A stretch of DNA of 64,000 nucleotides from positions 1 to 64,000 of the IMG/VR virus record IMGVR_UViG_3300012930_000002, one strand, 5' to 3'. Shown one piece after another: positions 32,419 through 41,895 of the stretch. The translations under genes were made by a program, and so were the position numbers. This DNA comes from a virus. Position 1 is the stretch's first letter. The number at the start of each line of letters is the position of its first letter. The notes below the pieces were generated by a model, which did no database searches, was not told the DNA's origin, and saw nothing but the letters and a program-made list of their open reading frames with translations.

Positions 32419-32536
32419 GGGCGAGTAGACTCCGCCGAATAGACTGTTGGGCAGGCCCTTTAGTTCTAGGGCGCTTCTGGCATTCTCACGCCCAATGAGA
32501 GAGTCTACTAGCGCCGGGCGCTCTGGAACTAAGGGG
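32419..32536 (+). promoter_or_regulatory. Structured leader hiding the helicase ribosome binding site
   Basis: 32456-32476 pairs with 32516-32536 over about 21 positions (core CCCTTTAGTTC with GAACTAAGGGG, a few G-U pairs). The 3' arm contains AAGGGG, eight bases before the TTG start at 32545. The loop holds a second hairpin (32484-32501) and GAGTCTACT (32501-32509), which can pair with AGTAGACTC at 32424-32432 upstream, giving a pseudoknot topology. CTTTTC follows the stem, so partial termination is also possible. Confidence 0.65.
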
Positions 32537-32544
32537 CTTTTCAT

Positions 32545-33954
32545 TTGCCTACAAAACCGAACGGACGCTATTTCTCTCTTACCGATGACGGTAACGGCAA
32601 ACTTTTCACGCAGCTCTTTCACGGTCAGGTTCTTTTCGATACTTCAACGGGTCAGTGGTATTACTGGAATAAGCAACGATGGGTTACTGATTCCAATTGG
32701 CGTATGTGGCGCGCGGCAAAGTTAGTTTCACGGCAGCGAACACAAGCCGCTCGTGAAATGCCCGATGGGGATATGAAAGTAGCAATGTTAGGCTTTGCAA
32801 AACAATCACTCAATGTGCCAAAGATTGAATCGCTATTACGGTCGGCACGATCAGAATACGGAATGTCTACAACTGGAGCTGAATGGGATGCAGAGCCGTT
32901 GTTACTAGGTTGTCAGAATGGCGTGCTCGATCTTGCCACAGGCAGATTAATAAAGCCTCAATCTAAGATGCGTATTACACAACAGGCCAATACAGTGTTT
33001 GATCCTGCCGCAAAGTGTCCATTGTGGGAAAAGACGCTACAGTCTTACTGGCCCGATGACGACGAGATAGTCGGATTCGTGCAACGGGCAGTGGGCTATT
33101 CAATGTCAGGTTCAATTAGCGAGCAGGTATTCTTTTGTCTATTTGGTGAAGGCGCGAACGGTAAGAGTACATTTCTCGGAGTAATCCAAAAACTACTTGG
33201 TGACTACGCTTACACAATGCCATTCTCAACTGTTGAGTTTGACAATCGTTCGACTATTTCAAATGACGTAGCAGCATTGCGTGGAAAACGGTTTGTACTA
33301 TCAAGCGAGACACAAGAGGATATCCGACTGAACGAAGGGCGCATCAAGTCATTAACCGGTGATTCAACTATCACCGCTCGGTTCCTGCGCCAAGAATATT
33401 TTACTTTTCAACCAGTCGGCAAGTTCTGGCTCGCATTCAATCATAAACCACGTATCGTCGATCAGAGCTATGGATTGTGGCGGCGACTTCGGCTGATTTG
33501 CTTCAATCAGACATTTGATAAAGAACGGCGAGTTAAGGGACTAGAACAGCAGCTACTCGCTGAGTTGCCCGGCATTCTTACTTGGGCCGTGCGCGGGTGC
33601 CTTGACTGGCAGAAGCAGGGATTAGAAGCAACTGCTTCGATTTTACGCGAGACCGAGCGATACAAACGAGAATCCAACATACTGGACGATTATCTAGAGG
33701 ATCGTTGCTTGCGCCAAGAGGGATTGAGCGTACCTAAGGCTGATCTCTATGCCGACTATCTTGATTGGTGTGCGGATAACAGAGAAAAGTGGCCAGTTGG
33801 CAAAAAAGGATTTAGCCAGCGCATCCTCGGCATGGGCATTCGCGACGGGCATAAGAAAGAAGGCCACTCAACTGTTCGTATCTGGCTCGGGCTAGACATT
33901 CAATCTGTAAACCAATCTGTAAACCAAGTAAGTGACGTAGATTCAGTGAATTAG
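32545..33954 (+). CDS. P4/D5-type replicative helicase
   Basis: 469 residues. The N-terminus (GRYFSLTDDGNGKLFTQLF, then GQWYYWNKQRW) is the D5_N-type start seen in phage/plasmid P4-family primase-helicases. The superfamily 3 ATPase has Walker A LFGEGANGKSTFLG, and GKRFVLSSETQEDIRLNEGR as the Walker B/B' region, then NHKPRI and WRRLRLICF. A C-terminal winged-helix part follows. No primase domain is fused. The start is TTG with AAGGGG buried in an upstream hairpin. The last codons (SVNQSVNQVSDVDSVN) belong to a DNA repeat array. Confidence 0.85.
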   Translation: MPTKPNGRYFSLTDDGNGKLFTQLFHGQVLFDTSTGQWYYWNKQRWVTDSNWRMWRAAKLVSRQRTQAAREMPDGDMKVAMLGFAKQSLNVPKIESLLRSARSEYGMSTTGAEWDAEPLLLGCQNGVLDLATGRLIKPQSKMRITQQANTVFDPAAKCPLWEKTLQSYWPDDDEIVGFVQRAVGYSMSGSISEQVFFCLFGEGANGKSTFLGVIQKLLGDYAYTMPFSTVEFDNRSTISNDVAALRGKRFVLSSETQEDIRLNEGRIKSLTGDSTITARFLRQEYFTFQPVGKFWLAFNHKPRIVDQSYGLWRRLRLICFNQTFDKERRVKGLEQQLLAELPGILTWAVRGCLDWQKQGLEATASILRETERYKRESNILDDYLEDRCLRQEGLSVPKADLYADYLDWCADNREKWPVGKKGFSQRILGMGIRDGHKKEGHSTVRIWLGLDIQSVNQSVNQVSDVDSVN

Positions 33955-34138
33955 AGAAATGGATTTTTTCCGTTTACACTTGGATTTTTGAAGTGTAAAC
34001 CAAGGAAGTGACACAGACTCAATGAATTATAGTCAATTTTCTATTAAAGTTTACACTTCAAAACTACATAGAACGCGCTCATGCGCATGCGCGCGCACCG
34101 TCGATTGGAATTTGAGGCTCCATCTGTAAACTGTAAAC
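33906..34138. repeat. TGTAAAC box array, origin or operator candidate
   Basis: Seven copies of TGTAAAC or its complement lie at 33906, 33918, 33972 (inverted), 33994, 34049 (inverted), 34125 and 34132. Two form a perfect 10-bp inverted repeat, GTTTACACTT (33972-33981) and AAGTGTAAAC (33991-34000). A degenerate direct repeat of about 37 bases covers 33918-33954 and 33994-34030. GC-alternating DNA (34081-34097) follows. Location between the two helicase genes suits a replication origin or a shared operator. Confidence 0.65.
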
Positions 34139-34149
34139 GGAGGTTTTCA

Positions 34150-35445
34150 ATGGAATCAATAGTTAGCTACGACGACGATGATCTAGCGGTGGAGTTTGAC
34201 GAGCAGCCGAGCGGTCAAGTTGCCACAGAGTTTCTGACCGGAAGCGCCGGCACGGGCAAGAGCTACGAGGTTAACCGGCGCATCGAGGTCAATCCGAGCT
34301 ATGCACTAATCGCCGCCACAACCGGCATTGCCGCTATCAACCTTGGCGAAGGTGTGACCACGATCAACGCCGCCCTTGGCTACTTCGACACCGAAAGCCT
34401 GATCGACAGCTACGTGCAAGGCTGGTTGACAAAGCGGCTGCGAAAGATTGCCAAGATGGGCTATGAGAACCTGGTGATTGACGAAGTGTCGATGATGGCT
34501 GCTGAGCAACTGGACTGTATTGTCAAGGCGATGGATGAGGTAGGAAGCATGGGGCTTGTGCTGACCGGCGACTTTTGCCAGCTGCCACCGATCAAGGCGC
34601 GTTGGGCATTTGAGGCCGACTGTTGGCGAGAGCGGTTCGAGGGCGAGCACGTAACGAAGCTGACCAAGTGTTGGCGACAGGATGATGTGACCTTTCTAGC
34701 AGCACTAGCGGCGATTCGGCGCGGCGACGGCGACCAAGGGGTTGAACTACTTGACCAATGTAGTATCACCTACGCCAGCAACAATGCGCTCGACTTCGCG
34801 GGCACTACACTGGTTAGCAAGAACGATGAAGTCGAGCGATTCAACTGGGTCTGTCATAGCAAGCTGACCACTCCTGCAATGACCGTAAAATCGTTCCGCT
34901 GGGGAAAACAGAAAGGTGAGTGGAAACTGGTGCCTGAACGGTTGGAGTTAAAACAAGGCGCATATGTAATGATTCTCGCGAATAAGCGATGGAATCCAGA
35001 TGACGGCGATGGATTCGAATATGTCAACGGGGACTGCGGCGATATTGTCAGCGTCGATAAGACAAGCGGTGTTTTCACCGTAGCGCTCAAGCGAGATGGG
35101 CGAGAAGTGCGAGTGACGCCGATTACCCGCCGCAATGAGCAAAAAGAGCGACCTGCCGACGAAAGCGAGCGGACATATTTTGATGAAATAAAGAAGCGAT
35201 GGATAGTAGGCGAGATTAGCTACGTGCCGCTGCGACTGGCCTATGCGAGCACTGTTCATAAGAGCCAAGGACTGTCACTGGACGCAGTGCAGATCAACTT
35301 GACTAATGCGTTTTTTGGAAGCCCGGCAATGGCATATGTCGCACTTTCACGCTGTCGAGCCGTTAGCGGACTGCGGATCGTCGGCGACAGGGACACGTTA
35401 AGACGGCGGGTGAAAACTGATCCAAAGGTGCTACGGTTTTTGTAA
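34150..35445 (+). CDS. Pif1/RecD-like superfamily 1B helicase
   Basis: 431 residues from the ATG at 34150, preceded by CGGAGG. Motif I is FLTGSAGTGKSYEV, motif II VIDEVSMM, motif III LTGDFCQLPPIKARW. The C-terminal 2B/SH3-type region ends with TVHKSQGLSLDAVQI and YVALSRCRAVSGLRIVG, the Pif1/Dda signature. Acts as a 5'-3' DNA helicase, probably at replication or recombination forks. It lies directly after the box array. Confidence 0.9.
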   Translation: MESIVSYDDDDLAVEFDEQPSGQVATEFLTGSAGTGKSYEVNRRIEVNPSYALIAATTGIAAINLGEGVTTINAALGYFDTESLIDSYVQGWLTKRLRKIAKMGYENLVIDEVSMMAAEQLDCIVKAMDEVGSMGLVLTGDFCQLPPIKARWAFEADCWRERFEGEHVTKLTKCWRQDDVTFLAALAAIRRGDGDQGVELLDQCSITYASNNALDFAGTTLVSKNDEVERFNWVCHSKLTTPAMTVKSFRWGKQKGEWKLVPERLELKQGAYVMILANKRWNPDDGDGFEYVNGDCGDIVSVDKTSGVFTVALKRDGREVRVTPITRRNEQKERPADESERTYFDEIKKRWIVGEISYVPLRLAYASTVHKSQGLSLDAVQINLTNAFFGSPAMAYVALSRCRAVSGLRIVGDRDTLRRRVKTDPKVLRFL

Positions 35446-36903: not shown

Positions 36904-37158
36904 GTGGCAAAATCACAGAACCAAACACCAGCGCTATTCGATCTAGGTGAACCAGCAGCCATGACAGCACCCGCAATAGTCACTGTCGATCCTGGCGCAC
37001 TGACGCGATTGCTAACCGAGTACGCCGAGGGCAAGGAGCGGCGGCGCGAGGTGGCGATGGAGTTATGGGCGCACCCTGAAAGTCCGCTGTTTGATGAACT
37101 GATGCGGGCGTTGGAGGCAGCAGAGGCACATGGACAATGGAAGAAAGAACACTTTTAA
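36904..37158 (+). CDS. Hypothetical protein, 84 aa
   Basis: GTG start three bases after the Nudix stop, with AGAGAGG before it. N-terminal part is Ala/Pro-rich; C-terminus is helical (VAMELWAHPESPLFDELMRA). It overlaps the methyltransferase start by 22 bases. Unknown. Confidence 0.5.
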   Translation: MAKSQNQTPALFDLGEPAAMTAPAIVTVDPGALTRLLTEYAEGKERRREVAMELWAHPESPLFDELMRALEAAEAHGQWKKEHF

Positions 37159-37901
37159 CCTTTGGCTCATTGTTCGCAGGTATCGGCGGCTTTGATTTAG
37201 GTCTTGAACGTGCTGGAATGAAATGCAAATGGCAAGTTGAGATTGATGATTATGCATCGAAAGTCCTCGCGAAACACTGGCCCAATGTTACCCGATTTCG
37301 AGACGTGCGGGAGTGTGGAAGGCATAACCTTGCCAACGTTGATCTCATCTGCGGAGGGTTTCCGTGTCAAGACATCAGCAATGCAGGAAAACGAGCGGGA
37401 ATTGACGGAGAGCGCAGCGGATTATGGTCGGAGTACGCAAGAATCATTCGCGAGTTACGACCCCAATACGTGCTCGTGGAAAACGTCGCAGCTTTGCTTG
37501 GGCGGGGAATGGGCAGAGTTCTCGGAGACTTGGCCGCGTGCGGGTATGATGCAGAGTGGGACATGTTACCCGCTTGTGCCTTTGGTGCCAAACATATCCG
37601 TGAAAGACTTTGGATATTATCCTACCCCTACGAAAAGCGACCACAAAGGCGCATCTTCGGGATGTGGAAAGATCAAGAACGAAGAACTTTCGATGCTTCG
37701 TTATTATCTATTCAGCTTGGAGCCAATCATTGGGACGCTTTACCCTCATCCAGAGTTTGTCGAGTGGCTAATGGGATTCCCAATAGGGCACACAGAACTA
37801 TGACGGTTGGGAATAGTATCGTCCCCCAAATCGCAGAATGGATCGGACGAAGAATCATAGCCGCAGAGGAGCATGGAGCATGGAAAGCACGGAACTTTTA
37901 G
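37137..37901 (+). CDS. DNA cytosine-5 methyltransferase, compact
   Basis: 254 residues, short for the family (usually 330 or more) because the target-recognition part is small. Motif I FGSLFAGIGGFDLGLERAG, motif IV GGFPCQDIS with the catalytic Cys, motif VI LVENVAALL, motif VIII-like HIRERLWILSY, and motif IX/X NRAHRTMTVGNSIVPQIAEW. All catalytic motifs are present, so it should be active. A second 188-codon frame lies entirely inside it. It probably protects phage DNA from host restriction. Confidence 0.9.
   Translation: MEERTLLTFGSLFAGIGGFDLGLERAGMKCKWQVEIDDYASKVLAKHWPNVTRFRDVRECGRHNLANVDLICGGFPCQDISNAGKRAGIDGERSGLWSEYARIIRELRPQYVLVENVAALLGRGMGRVLGDLAACGYDAEWDMLPACAFGAKHIRERLWILSYPYEKRPQRRIFGMWKDQERRTFDASLLSIQLGANHWDALPSSRVCRVANGIPNRAHRTMTVGNSIVPQIAEWIGRRIIAAEEHGAWKARNF
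37237..37803 (+). CDS. Overprinted frame inside the C5 methyltransferase gene, 188 aa
   Basis: The +1 frame stays open from a TTG at 37237 (ATGs at 37246, 37252 and 37381) to TGA at 37803. Its product holds ESFASYDPNTCSWKTSQLCL, WAEFSETWPRAGMMQSGTC, FGYYPTPTKSDHKG and EFVEWLMGFPIGHTEL. From memory these motifs mark a recurrent, usually unnamed phage protein family often found near methyltransferases. They lie exactly over methyltransferase motifs VI to IX. No convincing ribosome binding site was found, so expression is uncertain. Confidence 0.5.
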   Translation: MRLMIMHRKSSRNTGPMLPDFETCGSVEGITLPTLISSAEGFRVKTSAMQENERELTESAADYGRSTQESFASYDPNTCSWKTSQLCLGGEWAEFSETWPRAGMMQSGTCYPLVPLVPNISVKDFGYYPTPTKSDHKGASSGCGKIKNEELSMLRYYLFSLEPIIGTLYPHPEFVEWLMGFPIGHTEL

Positions 37902-40156
37902 GTGAGCGGGATTATACTGATTTTCTAGCGAGCAAGCGACTGGTTGCGCCCGCTACTGGCATTGAGATCGACCGCGCCGATTTGCACCCTGCCATGTTTC
38001 CCTTTCAGGCGGACGTAACAACTTGGGCGCTACGTAAGGGCCGTGCGGCAATGTTTCTAGATTGCGTCGCGGGATCATCGCGAATACTGACATCGCAAGG
38101 CTACCAACCTATTCAAGAGCGGAATCGGCAATGGACAGAAATTTATTCGCTGTCACCAACAGGTCCGGTTGTTACTCCTGCTTTTATCTTTAAGAAGGGC
38201 AATGCGGGCCTATTACGTATTCGCACTCAAGGCGGCAGAACTATTGAGATCGCTTCACGGCATCTATTCTTAACGTCTTCCGGCTGGCTTTTGGCTTCCG
38301 AGATCGAGGTCGGCGTATCGCTTGCAGTATCCGACGCCGACCGTCTTCTGTCCATTTTGGAATCCGGCCAGTTAGTTCAGCACGAAGATGATCGCCATTG
38401 GTCGGATACAATTCAAGATTGTCAGGCTCGTTACACTGTTTCCCCTTCGCAGTGTTCTTATGGTGAACCACCTCTTCGGGGCGCAAGTATCGCCCAATTA
38501 CCATTTCTATCACAAGTCGGTGTTCAAGAACTCGCCCCGCTTTTGAGGCAAATGGATGTTCGGGACAATAAATTGAAACGTACCCATCCGCGTCTAAGTA
38601 TCGGCCGCCTTTCCATGCGGGATTATGTGACCCCGGCAAGCTATGCTGAGAGTGACGCGGGATATTGTTCCTTTTCATCGTTTGCCAAATGGTATTCTTT
38701 GAATAGCCAAGAACTATTCCGACCTGCTTCATCCGATAGCCCTGAGCAGTCAATTCCCGAATTTTCTCAATCTCATCAAGTTGAAGATTATATAAGCGAG
38801 GTCGTCCAGTTTTCATGCTTAGAAGTATACCATGATCCTATAGTCAGTGTCGAGAAAGTAGATGCGGCGGACTATTATGATATGTACGTACCCGGCTATC
38901 ACAATTACCTTGCAGAAGGTATGTGGCATCATAATACAGGTCTTGGCAAATCGTTCTGTCAAATTGAATGGGCGCGCATCCTCAATAACCAGGGTTACTG
39001 CGTGTTGATAGTAGCCCCTCTCGCTGTCGCTAAACAAACTGTGCGCGAGGCTGCGAAGTGGGGTACGGCAATCGAGTATGTGCGAGAGCCGGCAGCAATC
39101 AGCGGCACAACTGAAACGATCATCACCAACTATGAACACGTGCAGAAGTTCGATATGCGGCAGTTTGGCGGCGTGGTACTGGACGAATCAAGCATCCTCA
39201 AGTCGCAAGACGGTAAGACACGTACACGGTTGATTGAAATGTGCCGCGAGATACCTTTCCGCCTATGCTGCACGGCCACCCCTGCACCAAACGACATTAG
39301 CGAGATTGCCAACCATGCTGAGTTCTTAGGATTGATGTCCCGCACTGAAATGCTCGCCCATTTCTTCGTTCACGGTGACACCGGCTGGCGACTGAAAGGT
39401 CACGCTAGCGAACCGTTCTATCGCTGGCTGGCGTCCTGGGGGATGTCAGTGAAGAAGCCGAGCGACCTGGGCTACGAGGACGGTGCATTCATCTTGCCAC
39501 CGCTTACCATCACTCCGCACTTTGTTCAAACCGACTGGAAGCCGGACGGGATGCTATTCAGCGTCAAGTTACGTGGCATCGGCGAACGGTCACAAGCACG
39601 GAAGGCGACACTGCTACCACGTGTTGCGAAAACAGTTGAGATTGTTGAAGCGGAGCCGAACCAACGTTGGCTGATCTTTTGTGACACGAACGATGAATCG
39701 ACGGCATTGAAAAAAGCACTGGATGCAGTCGAGGTCAAGGGCAGCGATACGCTAGATCACAAAGAACGGTCACTGCTTGGATTTGCCAACGGTGACATTC
39801 CGCGACTTGTAAGCAAGACCTCAATTGCGGGCTTTGGTTTGAATCTCCAAGTCTGCTCCCGCGTCCTTTACTGCGGCCTCAGCGACAGTGAGGAAAAGTT
39901 CTATCAAGGCACCCGGCGAGTCTGGCGATTTGGCCAGCCTGATCCCGTTACCGCGCATATCGTGCTGAGCGATGCCGAGTATCCGATCTACGAGAACGTG
40001 ATGAGGAAAGAAGCGAAGGCAGCAGAGATGTCAGCTAACCTGATTCAGAATGTCGCTGCATATGAACGCACCGAGATCAGTTCGCATCTTGGCAGCTTTA
40101 ACTATGCGGACGATCAGGAAATAAAGCTTCCATCTTGGCTTAATGGTGGTGTATAA
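37880..40156 (+). CDS. SNF2/DEAD-like helicase interrupted by an intein
   Basis: 758 residues from the ATG at 37880 (AGAGGAG nine bases before). The first 61 residues include AMFPFQADVTTWALRKGRAA. The P-loop reads FLD | TGLGKSFCQ, split by 291 intein residues. After it come VLIVAPLAVAKQTVREAAKW, motif II VVLDESSILKS, motif III CTATPAPND, and C-terminal SIAGFGLNLQVC with VWRFGQPDPVTAHI, the SNF2 motif VI region. After splicing the protein has about 467 residues. Similar helicases next to methyltransferases are found in phages; the task may be DNA translocation during modification or recombination. Confidence 0.85.
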   Translation: MESTELLGERDYTDFLASKRLVAPATGIEIDRADLHPAMFPFQADVTTWALRKGRAAMFLDCVAGSSRILTSQGYQPIQERNRQWTEIYSLSPTGPVVTPAFIFKKGNAGLLRIRTQGGRTIEIASRHLFLTSSGWLLASEIEVGVSLAVSDADRLLSILESGQLVQHEDDRHWSDTIQDCQARYTVSPSQCSYGEPPLRGASIAQLPFLSQVGVQELAPLLRQMDVRDNKLKRTHPRLSIGRLSMRDYVTPASYAESDAGYCSFSSFAKWYSLNSQELFRPASSDSPEQSIPEFSQSHQVEDYISEVVQFSCLEVYHDPIVSVEKVDAADYYDMYVPGYHNYLAEGMWHHNTGLGKSFCQIEWARILNNQGYCVLIVAPLAVAKQTVREAAKWGTAIEYVREPAAISGTTETIITNYEHVQKFDMRQFGGVVLDESSILKSQDGKTRTRLIEMCREIPFRLCCTATPAPNDISEIANHAEFLGLMSRTEMLAHFFVHGDTGWRLKGHASEPFYRWLASWGMSVKKPSDLGYEDGAFILPPLTITPHFVQTDWKPDGMLFSVKLRGIGERSQARKATLLPRVAKTVEIVEAEPNQRWLIFCDTNDESTALKKALDAVEVKGSDTLDHKERSLLGFANGDIPRLVSKTSIAGFGLNLQVCSRVLYCGLSDSEEKFYQGTRRVWRFGQPDPVTAHIVLSDAEYPIYENVMRKEAKAAEMSANLIQNVAAYERTEISSHLGSFNYADDQEIKLPSWLNGGV
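38241..38816 (-). CDS. HNH homing endonuclease encoded antisense to the intein
   Basis: 191 residues. N-terminal HTH (EIEKIRELTAQGYRMKQVG, then LGYSKNTIWQTMKR), a linker with HNPAWKGGRYLDADGYVSI, and an HNH_3-type core: EHRLVIEMVIGRYLRPEEVV, HHKNTAKGKQCNEPDNLEL, then YPTNGDHLRAEL. Basic C-terminus. The gene lies wholly within the intein coding region on the other strand, and the two reading frames are both open. It has its own promoter-like sequence. It would cut intein-free helicase alleles. Confidence 0.85.
   Translation of the reverse strand: MKTGRPRLYNLQLDEIEKIRELTAQGYRMKQVGIVLGYSKNTIWQTMKRNNIPRHSQHSLPGSHNPAWKGGRYLDADGYVSIYCPEHPFASKAGRVLEHRLVIEMVIGRYLRPEEVVHHKNTAKGKQCNEPDNLELYPTNGDHLRAELTGRIPKWTEDGRRRILQAIRRPRSRKPKASRKTLRIDAVKRSQ
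38824..38853 (-). promoter_or_regulatory. Leaderless promoter for the antisense endonuclease
   Basis: On the minus strand TCGACA (38853-38848), 18-base spacer, TATACT (38829-38824). The ATG at 38816 starts seven bases after the -10 box, so the transcript would be leaderless; no Shine-Dalgarno sequence is seen. It lies inside the C-terminal splicing domain of the intein. Confidence 0.6.
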
Positions 40157-40157
40157 T
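40152..40157 (+). promoter_or_regulatory. -10 box of a probable leaderless HNH promoter
   Basis: A perfect TATAAT formed by the last codons of the helicase gene. The GTG at 40164 lies at the expected start point. The -35 region is poor (TTCCAT at 40128-40133), so strength depends on context. Confidence 0.5.
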
Positions 40158-40163
40158 GGTGGC

Positions 40164-40949
40164 GTGAAGATTCCGTTGCCGGTACGTCAAAAAGTCAAGT
40201 GTGCGATCTGTGACAGAACTCTTAGTCGGGTTATTTGGAACTACCCAAAGAATCGGCCTATCGCCTTTTTCTTTTGTAACAACAGCTGCAAGGGGCAATG
40301 GCAAAGAGAACAGCGGGAGGCATTAGGATTTACGCGAGAATGGCTGATAGAGCAGTATATTGTTCTTAAAAAGACGGCTAATGATATTGCTACTGAGATC
40401 GGTCGTGATCCTAAGCGCGTTTGGGAATGGATCAGGGATTATAAAATTGCGACTCGCCCACGTGGAACCGCAACTCATCTGAAAGGCGGCGTGCCGTTTG
40501 GACGTGGCAACATTGGCCGGAAGCATTCACCTGAAATGAAAGCAAAGCTACGAGCTATCGCATTAGCTGACGGTCGCGTTCCTTATGATCCAAAAGTCGG
40601 ACCTCCGTTCAAAGGAAAACGTGGAGCCGAAACACCAAACTGGAAAGGCGGTGTTACGCCAGAGCGACAGGCTTTTTATTCATCGCCTGAATGGGCAAAA
40701 GCGATCAAGGCAGTCTGGCATCGAGCGGATGCAAAATGCGAGCGATGCGGATTAGATCATCGGACGATTGATCGAACAAAGAAACGGTTTCATGTTCATC
40801 ATATCGTTAGCTTTCAAATACGCGAGCTGCGGGCGGTAGTAAGCAATCTCGCATTACTCTGTGATACCTGTCATCGATGGGTACATAGCAAAAGGAATAA
40901 GAACCATGAGTTCATCCGCGAAAGTAATGGCGCAGGCACAGGGCTCTAA
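40164..40949 (+). CDS. HNH endonuclease with zinc finger and HTH
   Basis: 261 residues from the GTG at 40164. An N-terminal zinc ribbon (KCAICDRTLSRVIWNY, FFFCNNSCKGQW) is followed by an HTH (ANDIATEIGRDPKRVWEWIR), a GRKHSPEMKAKLRAIA segment like the NUMOD3 DNA-binding motif, and the HNH core KCERCGLDHRT, FHVHHIVSFQIRE, LALLCDTCHRWVHS. The modular build is typical of homing nucleases. Lies between the helicase and methyltransferase genes and overlaps the latter by 44 bases. Confidence 0.85.
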   Translation: MKIPLPVRQKVKCAICDRTLSRVIWNYPKNRPIAFFFCNNSCKGQWQREQREALGFTREWLIEQYIVLKKTANDIATEIGRDPKRVWEWIRDYKIATRPRGTATHLKGGVPFGRGNIGRKHSPEMKAKLRAIALADGRVPYDPKVGPPFKGKRGAETPNWKGGVTPERQAFYSSPEWAKAIKAVWHRADAKCERCGLDHRTIDRTKKRFHVHHIVSFQIRELRAVVSNLALLCDTCHRWVHSKRNKNHEFIRESNGAGTGL

Positions 40950-41895
40950 TTGGGCTTTATATAATGGGGATTCTGCCGAGATTATGAAAGGGCTTCCTTC
41001 CGAGTCTGTTGACTTAAGCCTGTTCTCTCCGCCTTTTGGCGCATTATTTGTGTATTCCAATACCGAACGTGATCTAGGTAACAGCAAAAACGCGGATGAG
41101 TTCTTTACCCACTTCGCCTACATTACCAGTGAAATTTATCGCGTGATGAAACCGGGACGGAATGTCTGTGTACACGTCGCGCAGTTGCCATTGACTAAAC
41201 AGACAGATGGCGTCATCGGCATCAAGGACTTTCGCGGTGATGTAATCCGGCACTTTGTCGCGCAGAATTTTATCTTTCACGGCGAAGTTTGTATAGACAA
41301 AGATCCGCAAGCCCAGGCAATTCGCACGCACAATAAGGGGTTGTTATTCGTGCAGCTCAAGAAGGACTCAAGCTGGTTGCGACCCGCGTTCGCTGACTAC
41401 GTGCTAGTGTTTCGCAAGCCTGGAGAGAACGCCGTAGCGATCCATCCTAATATCAGTAACGACGACTGGATCAAGTGGGCACATCCGCTTTGGCAAATTG
41501 AAACGACTGACGAGGACCGAGCGCTATTCGATAGCTCCGAGCTGTTCGACCTTGCGCCGGGCACTCCGCTAATCTGGTACGGCATTCGCGAGAGTGACAC
41601 GCTGCAAGGCATGCGTGAGGCTCGTGATGAGAAGGACGGCAAGCATATTTGTCCGTTGCAGCTTGGTACGATAGAGCGATGTGTTAGGTTGTGGAGTAAT
41701 CCAGGCGAGCTAGTGTTCTCGCCCTTTGCAGGCATCGGCAGCGAGCCGTATCAAGCGGTCAAGTTTGGCCGGCGCGGATTAGGTATTGAACTGAAGCCAC
41801 AGTATTACTCTGTCGCCGTCAAAAACCTCCAGCAAGCCGAGCGTGAGGCGATGTCAGGATCGCTGTTTGGGCTGATGGAAGCTGCCGCGCCGTAG
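40906..41895 (+). CDS. DNA N4/N6-type methyltransferase
   Basis: 329 residues from the ATG at 40906 (AAGGA upstream); a GTG and ATG further up lie inside the HNH gene. Motif IV is VDLSLFSPPFGALFVYS, and motif I near the C-terminus is GELVFSPFAGIGSEPYQAVK followed by RRGLGIELKPQY. Motif IV before motif I indicates the beta class of amino-methyltransferases. SPPF suggests N4-cytosine or N6-adenine methylation. Together with the helicase it may form a modification pair. Confidence 0.85.
   Translation: MSSSAKVMAQAQGSNWALYNGDSAEIMKGLPSESVDLSLFSPPFGALFVYSNTERDLGNSKNADEFFTHFAYITSEIYRVMKPGRNVCVHVAQLPLTKQTDGVIGIKDFRGDVIRHFVAQNFIFHGEVCIDKDPQAQAIRTHNKGLLFVQLKKDSSWLRPAFADYVLVFRKPGENAVAIHPNISNDDWIKWAHPLWQIETTDEDRALFDSSELFDLAPGTPLIWYGIRESDTLQGMREARDEKDGKHICPLQLGTIERCVRLWSNPGELVFSPFAGIGSEPYQAVKFGRRGLGIELKPQYYSVAVKNLQQAEREAMSGSLFGLMEAAAP

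Follow-up and report, generated by a model that had tools for sequence, protein, structure and literature searches.

A probable replication origin of the SaPI/PICI type behind a D5-type helicase gene in a tailed phage

A box array between two helicase genes

The stretch of DNA analysed here (the window) comprises 64 kb of a 71817-base virus record, IMGVR_UViG_3300012930_000002. Between positions 33906 and 34138 it contains seven exact copies of the heptamer TGTAAAC (33906+, 33918+, 33972-, 33994+, 34049-, 34125+ and 34132+; boxes were counted on both strands), which straddle the 3′ end of a D5-type superfamily 3 (SF3) helicase gene and continue past it, two boxes lying within the coding sequence and five in non-coding DNA. 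An earlier interpretation made from the letters alone (the sequence-only reading) had named this array as a candidate origin of replication. All seven copies were found exactly where it had placed them, as was a perfect 10-bp inverted pair, and its two flanking helicase genes can now be specified as SF3 (D5) upstream and SF1 (Dda/PIF1-like) downstream. The degenerate direct repeat that it had described as 37 bases long is also present, but measures 39 nucleotides (nt) at 85% identity. The locus is made up of the following features:

32545..33954, plus strand: stand-alone D5-type SF3 helicase (D5_N, DUF5906, Pox_D5), proposed initiator (Pfam/PHROG matches, AlphaFold2 model)
33652..33924, plus strand: part of the gene encoding the C-terminal winged helix, which is proposed to read the boxes (AlphaFold2, structure matches, Pfam)
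33901..33924, plus strand: two 12-nt units CAATCTGTAAAC with boxes 1 and 2, still within the helicase gene (repeat analysis)
33918..34032, plus strand: direct repeat of 39 nt in two copies (33918-33956/33994-34032), offset by 76 nt
33972..34000, no strand: boxes 3 and 4, the perfect 10-bp inverted pair (33972-33981/33991-34000), GTTTACACTT-9 nt-AAGTGTAAAC (repeat analysis)
34010..34060, no strand: AT-rich stretch with boxes on either side, candidate unwinding element; its 40-bp minimum, from about 34019, has 20% GC
34044..34055, minus strand: left inverted arm of a 69-bp gap, made up of box 5 and its flank, 92% complementary to 34125-34136
34080..34098, no strand: alternating purine-pyrimidine tract CATGCGCATGCGCGCGCAC, predicted to be prone to the Z form, in the middle of the 69-bp gap between boxes
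34125..34138, plus strand: right inverted arm, formed by boxes 6 and 7 in head-to-tail order, immediately ahead of the ribosome-binding site for the SF1 helicase gene
34150..35445, plus strand: SF1 Dda/PIF1-like helicase, the downstream neighbour (Pfam/PHROG matches)

The array is unique in the window. TGTAAAC occurs 11 times in the whole 64 kb against 4.9 expected from whole-window shuffling, an expectation of about 0.02 per 233 bp, and shuffling of the local AT-rich 300 bp gave a mean of 0.066 copies and a maximum of 2; the earlier estimate had been about 0.03. Among all 7-mer clusters across the 64 kb this is the densest (the runner-up has 4 copies in 233 bp), and in 20 whole-window shuffles the best 7-mer cluster had 3-4 copies per 233 bp. 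The remaining TGTAAAC copies of the record are singles, in a number close to chance.

Four boxes lie to the left of the window's AT minimum and three to the right, giving two repeat sets that flank an AT-rich region. The alternating tract, which the sequence-only reading had noted as adjoining GC-alternating DNA, is 19 nt long, sits at fraction 0.49 of the inter-box gap and is the sole alternating run of at least 15 nt in the 64 kb. The region 3′ of the helicase gene also forms a large inverted repeat (20-nt arms 33981-34000/34049-34068, 48-nt loop, 90% complementary), and its fold as single-stranded DNA scores z -3.1 relative to shuffles. No Rfam match and no tRNA gene was found in the window, and the array region has no DNA-level match among phage records.

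Arrays behind D5 helicases in other phages and prophages

Short-box arrays were detected in the gap after the helicase gene in phi105 (a phage of Bacillus subtilis, with boxes behind its primase-helicase gene), PSA, AcaML1, CR28 and Milly, each phage having its own word. The survey was made on 84 non-redundant loci (D5 proteins less than 70% identical), using a test window of 300 bp from 60 nt before the D5 stop codon and, as controls, other offsets up to 3 kb. An 8-mer repeated at least three times was found at the D5 stop in 57% of the 84 loci compared with about 4% of control windows, and one repeated at least four times in 34% compared with less than 1%; the D5-stop window was the best of its locus in 37 of 84 cases, against 1.9 expected. 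With the box and tract measures repeated unchanged on 72 prophage loci that had been held out and span three bacterial phyla, the corresponding values were 50% versus about 5% (at least three copies) and 29% versus about 1% (at least four copies).

The recurring arrays share the architecture of the window. A GC dip of 0.09 lies directly past the D5 stop in the 84-locus windows, boxes flank the AT minimum on both sides in 50 of 62 clear cases (33 expected) and the inner box pair is inverted in 37 of these 50 (p=0.0009), while boxes on the same side are mostly direct (120 direct vs 41 inverted). Patterns such as ++|-- with a gap of about 70 bp are common, and often about 65-75 bp separate the boxes. 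Many phages and prophages thus have this layout behind their D5 helicases, and the survey yields a simple rule for locating the origin and its box.

The central alternating tract

Alternating purine-pyrimidine runs of at least 13 nt were found in 18% of the 200-bp stretches past the D5 stop in the 84-locus set, compared with about 1% elsewhere, and GC-rich alternating runs reached 0.65 per kb compared with 0.040 per kb. This enrichment was first noticed post hoc in that set and was hence repeated on the 72 held-out loci, where alternating runs occurred in 16.7% versus about 1% and GC-rich runs at 0.83 versus 0.044 per kb; across both sets, GC-rich tracts are 16-19 times denser behind D5 helicases than elsewhere. 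In 10 of 16 cases (2.9 expected) the tract fell within the largest spacing between boxes, and often precisely in the middle of it. The element seen at 34080-34098 thus recurs behind the D5 helicases of relatives.

The same arrangement marks a clade of AcaML1-like loci (L382-L459), in which, 140 nt past the D5 stop, inverted pairs flank an alternating GC tract of 15-25 nt and the arms co-vary. An alternating run of at least 11 nt is present in 64 of its 71 distinct regions, compared with 5.9% of controls, and the median gap between arms is 65 bp. An arm matches its own partner at 15.3 of 16 positions and the partners of other members at 12.7 of 16, the former figure being favoured somewhat because the best fit was picked within each region. 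Since arms differ between members and yet match their own partner, they evolve together, as would be expected if one protein reads both. This clade is a ready-made set for studies of origin evolution.

The helicase and its C-terminal domain

The product of 32545-33954 matches D5_N (1.3e-24) and DUF5906 (4.3e-12), both above the Pfam cut-offs, as is a C-terminal match to Pox_D5, and the SF3 core motif GxGxNGKS was invariant in 53 sequences. With a D5_N region, an SF3 ATPase core and a predicted C-terminal winged helix it has the make-up of the D5/SF3 primase-helicase family. A fused N-terminal primase is common but not universal in this family and thus not required for membership; here it is absent, the frame opening at 32533 and running for about 470 codons, and the protein begins directly at the helicase half, in contrast to the fused proteins of the named phages inspected. 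Neither a Prim-Pol nor a family-A polymerase (PolA) was matched in the 71817-base record, a search that covered these two families and no other primases. The AlphaFold2 model (predicted local distance difference test, pLDDT, 93) superposes on the PrimPol of African swine fever virus (Z 32) and on the SaPI5 primase-helicase (Z 30), the latter ranking with the best structural matches when the whole model is compared.

The box codons at the end of the gene produce a tail (QSVNQSVN...SVN) for which disorder is predicted (pLDDT <50 at residues 458-464 and 467-469). The sequence-only reading had taken the SVNQSVN repeats for a by-product of the array, a remark that is sound, since boxes likewise overlap the helicase gene end in several relatives.

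Modelled alone, the C-terminal domain gave a pLDDT of 87.7. Its best structure match was RFX5 (8zjr, Z 11.0); it aligned with RFX1 bound to its X-box (1dp7) at Z 9.7, with a root mean square deviation of 2.2 over 74 residues and 26% identity, and the next matches were the PrimPol already named and the origin-binding domain of phage P4 (1ka8), both at Z 8.5. Pfam RFX_DNA_binding was matched by 27 of 45 relatives when E values as high as 1 were allowed, a loose threshold (best 3.8e-6), whereas the window helicase itself (E 1.4e-4, 22.9 bits) falls below the curated cut-off of 27. The domain as modelled therefore has the RFX fold but lies under the curated Pfam threshold. The RFX half-site GTNRCC, tested after the data had been seen, was found exactly in 4 of 48 boxes, compared with 0.7 expected (p 0.008), and the resemblance of some boxes to it is a lead only. 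TGTAAAC is not an exact GTNRCC. Box similarity correlated with similarity of the C-terminal domain, given the helicase core, at a significant but weak level (partial Mantel 0.08-0.17).

Comparison with known origins

In staphylococcal pathogenicity islands (SaPIs), phage-inducible chromosomal islands (PICIs), the staphylococcal cassette chromosome SCCmec and plasmid pRN1, a proven or proposed origin lies immediately 3′ of a related helicase gene (PMC7581432, PMC6092414, PMC4234260). SaPI Rep and SCCmec Cch2 are described there as binding repeats immediately downstream of their own genes (PMC7581432). The PICI account gives origins with two iteron sets around an AT-rich region, and a pri-rep-ori unit whose function was tested on plasmids, a plasmid being supported with the pri gene (PMC6092414).

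The closest likeness is to this rep-ori of Staphylococcus SaPIs and E. coli PICIs, which also has its origin directly 3′ of the related helicase gene, with two short-repeat sets around an AT-rich stretch (PMC6092414). The window shares both traits, its array lying immediately 3′ of the proposed initiator gene. It differs in the box word, in a helicase without a fused primase and in the centred alternating tract, which the consulted portions of the SaPI/PICI papers do not mention. It also resembles a PICI origin without being part of a PICI, because the 71.8-kb record has portal-like and internal-virion-like matches and is thus a tailed phage genome with virion genes, whereas a PICI is a satellite lacking a full virion gene set. 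The window locus follows the SaPI/PICI-like design of helicase plus downstream origin, in a tailed phage genome whose helicase stands alone, and with an alternating tract at the centre. The survey runs counter to the published opinion that such an arrangement is particular to PICIs.

The putative SCCmec origin is likewise bound by the C-terminal domain of a helicase, Cch2, at direct repeats that closely follow the operon (PMC7581432), but it has three short repeats of another box, and priming there is by a PolA-MP pair, whereas PolA was not found in the record of the window. In pRN1, the region 3′ of orf904, a D5-type replication gene, is essential and comprises an inverted-repeat element of about 100 bp with low sequence conservation and preserved arm symmetry (PMC4234260). 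The window, too, has a large inverted repeat 3′ of its helicase gene; the pRN1 element, however, is described as a stem-loop without iterons, while the boxes here are multiple and partly direct. By analogy, the pRN1 stem-loop, which resembles the inverted-arm layout of the window, and that layout itself may both consist of protein-binding arms.

The alpha protein of phage P4, acting at ori/crr, is also an SF3 helicase with a C-terminal winged helix that binds origin repeats, and its domain fold matches (above), but it is fused to a Toprim primase and has weak sequence similarity to the window helicase. Eukaryotic RFX proteins share the fold of the DNA-binding domain, but they are transcription factors without a helicase, and the Pfam match of the window domain is sub-threshold. 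We found no description of an alternating tract or an RFX link for such origins in the literature searched, subscription papers being outside its scope.

A putative origin and its alternatives

To our knowledge, few origins have been mapped among phages with D5-type helicases. We consider it highly likely that this tailed phage has its replication origin, or one of its origins, at 33901-34138, and the features of this region indicate that the origin is very probably of the SaPI/PICI type, with a Z-prone centre. The proposal of the sequence-only reading is thus supported by position, architecture and protein partner, and strongly so by recurrence in relatives, including the held-out set. The D5-type SF3 helicase encoded upstream would bind the TGTAAAC boxes through its RFX-like C-terminal winged helix, and helicase rings would assemble from the two inverted box sets and open the AT-rich and alternating purine-pyrimidine DNA between them; replication would then start at this site as forks leave it.

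Some results weigh against this interpretation. GC skew, which had been suggested as a check, shows no step at 34 kb; its sign switches at around 25 kb and 60 kb. By the 8-mer measure, about 40-50% of relatives have no clear array; in several of these the next gene begins without a gap. The arrays recurring behind D5 helicases consist of words of their own, and the search for the box in related phages returned no close relative with an identical one: none of the relatives that are close by helicase or by SF1 helicase protein had a D5 helicase nearby, and a relative by portal protein (L381) is a short contig only. Box similarity correlates with the helicase core, given the C-terminus, about as well (0.09-0.12) as with the C-terminal domain, and assignment of box specificity to that domain is accordingly a matter of likelihood. 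Finally, the TGTAAACC pair used as sole search key retrieved 80 viral loci, 0 of them with a D5 helicase. The box alone is not diagnostic, since these loci lacked the helicase and many looked like coding repeats with a 9-nt period.

The sign changes of the skew, at ~25000 and ~60000, roughly coincide with changes of gene direction, and the skew therefore looks like an effect of transcription or gene strand. In L144, L131, L157 and other contigs, many TGTAAACC copies are spaced at multiples of 9 nt with no D5 helicase; the copies in such D5-less viral contigs are probably coding repeats.

An unlikely alternative is that the boxes are operators, which would let the D5 helicase, or some regulator of the phage, control the downstream SF1 helicase gene, replication starting elsewhere. 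Boxes 6 and 7 do immediately precede the ribosome-binding site of that gene and inverted pairs are typical of operators, but neither a sigma-70-like promoter nor a terminator was found in 33700-34400, TGTAAAC is otherwise present in the record as near-chance singles, and array position tracks the D5 gene across phyla. Very unlikely, in our view, is a single-strand or stem-loop origin like that of pRN1, in which the helicase recognises a large hairpin and the boxes are merely its stem. The 20-nt arms with their 48-nt loop and the fold score would suit such a hairpin, as would the intact stem-loop of similar size that pRN1 requires and the co-evolving arms of the AcaML1-like clade; the excess of direct over inverted same-side copies would not, a hairpin needing no direct copies, and Cch2 binding in SCCmec depends on direct, not inverted, repeats. 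Chance, or coding-driven repeats in the gene tail with local AT bias, could explain the two coding boxes that yield SVNQSVN and has a parallel in the TGTAAACC pairs of contigs without a D5 helicase, but is of negligible probability given five non-coding boxes, local shuffles never above 2 copies and arrays that recur in relatives and in the held-out set.

Beyond the origin proposed for this phage, we tentatively suggest, with rather more doubt than confidence, that tailed phages with D5 helicases may share one general design, in which two inverted box sets stand about 65-75 bp from each other, a Z-prone alternating purine-pyrimidine (or AT-rich) tract occupies the middle of the gap, and the boxes are read by an RFX-like C-terminal winged helix; the central tract would serve as an opening element driven by superhelicity, and both origin and box word would be predictable from sequence. 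If so, they could be predicted for thousands of uncultured phages. To the layout known from satellites the survey adds a recurring alternating centre, which held up in held-out loci, and both the role of this centre and origin recognition by D5 helicases become directly testable.

Other features of the window

A long imperfect inverted repeat (CCCTTTAGTTCTAG.../...CTGGAACTAAGGGG) at 32450-32540 stands immediately before the start of the D5 helicase gene; it had no Rfam match, and its fold as single-stranded DNA was mildly better than that of shuffles (z -1.9). Downstream, 37137-41895 holds a cluster comprising a short C5-cytosine methylase, an SNF2-like helicase with an intein, an HNH endonuclease and an N6/N4 methylase, in which an intein splicing domain (Pfam PF14890, 1.6e-11) interrupts the open reading frame of the SNF2-like helicase (37838-40156).
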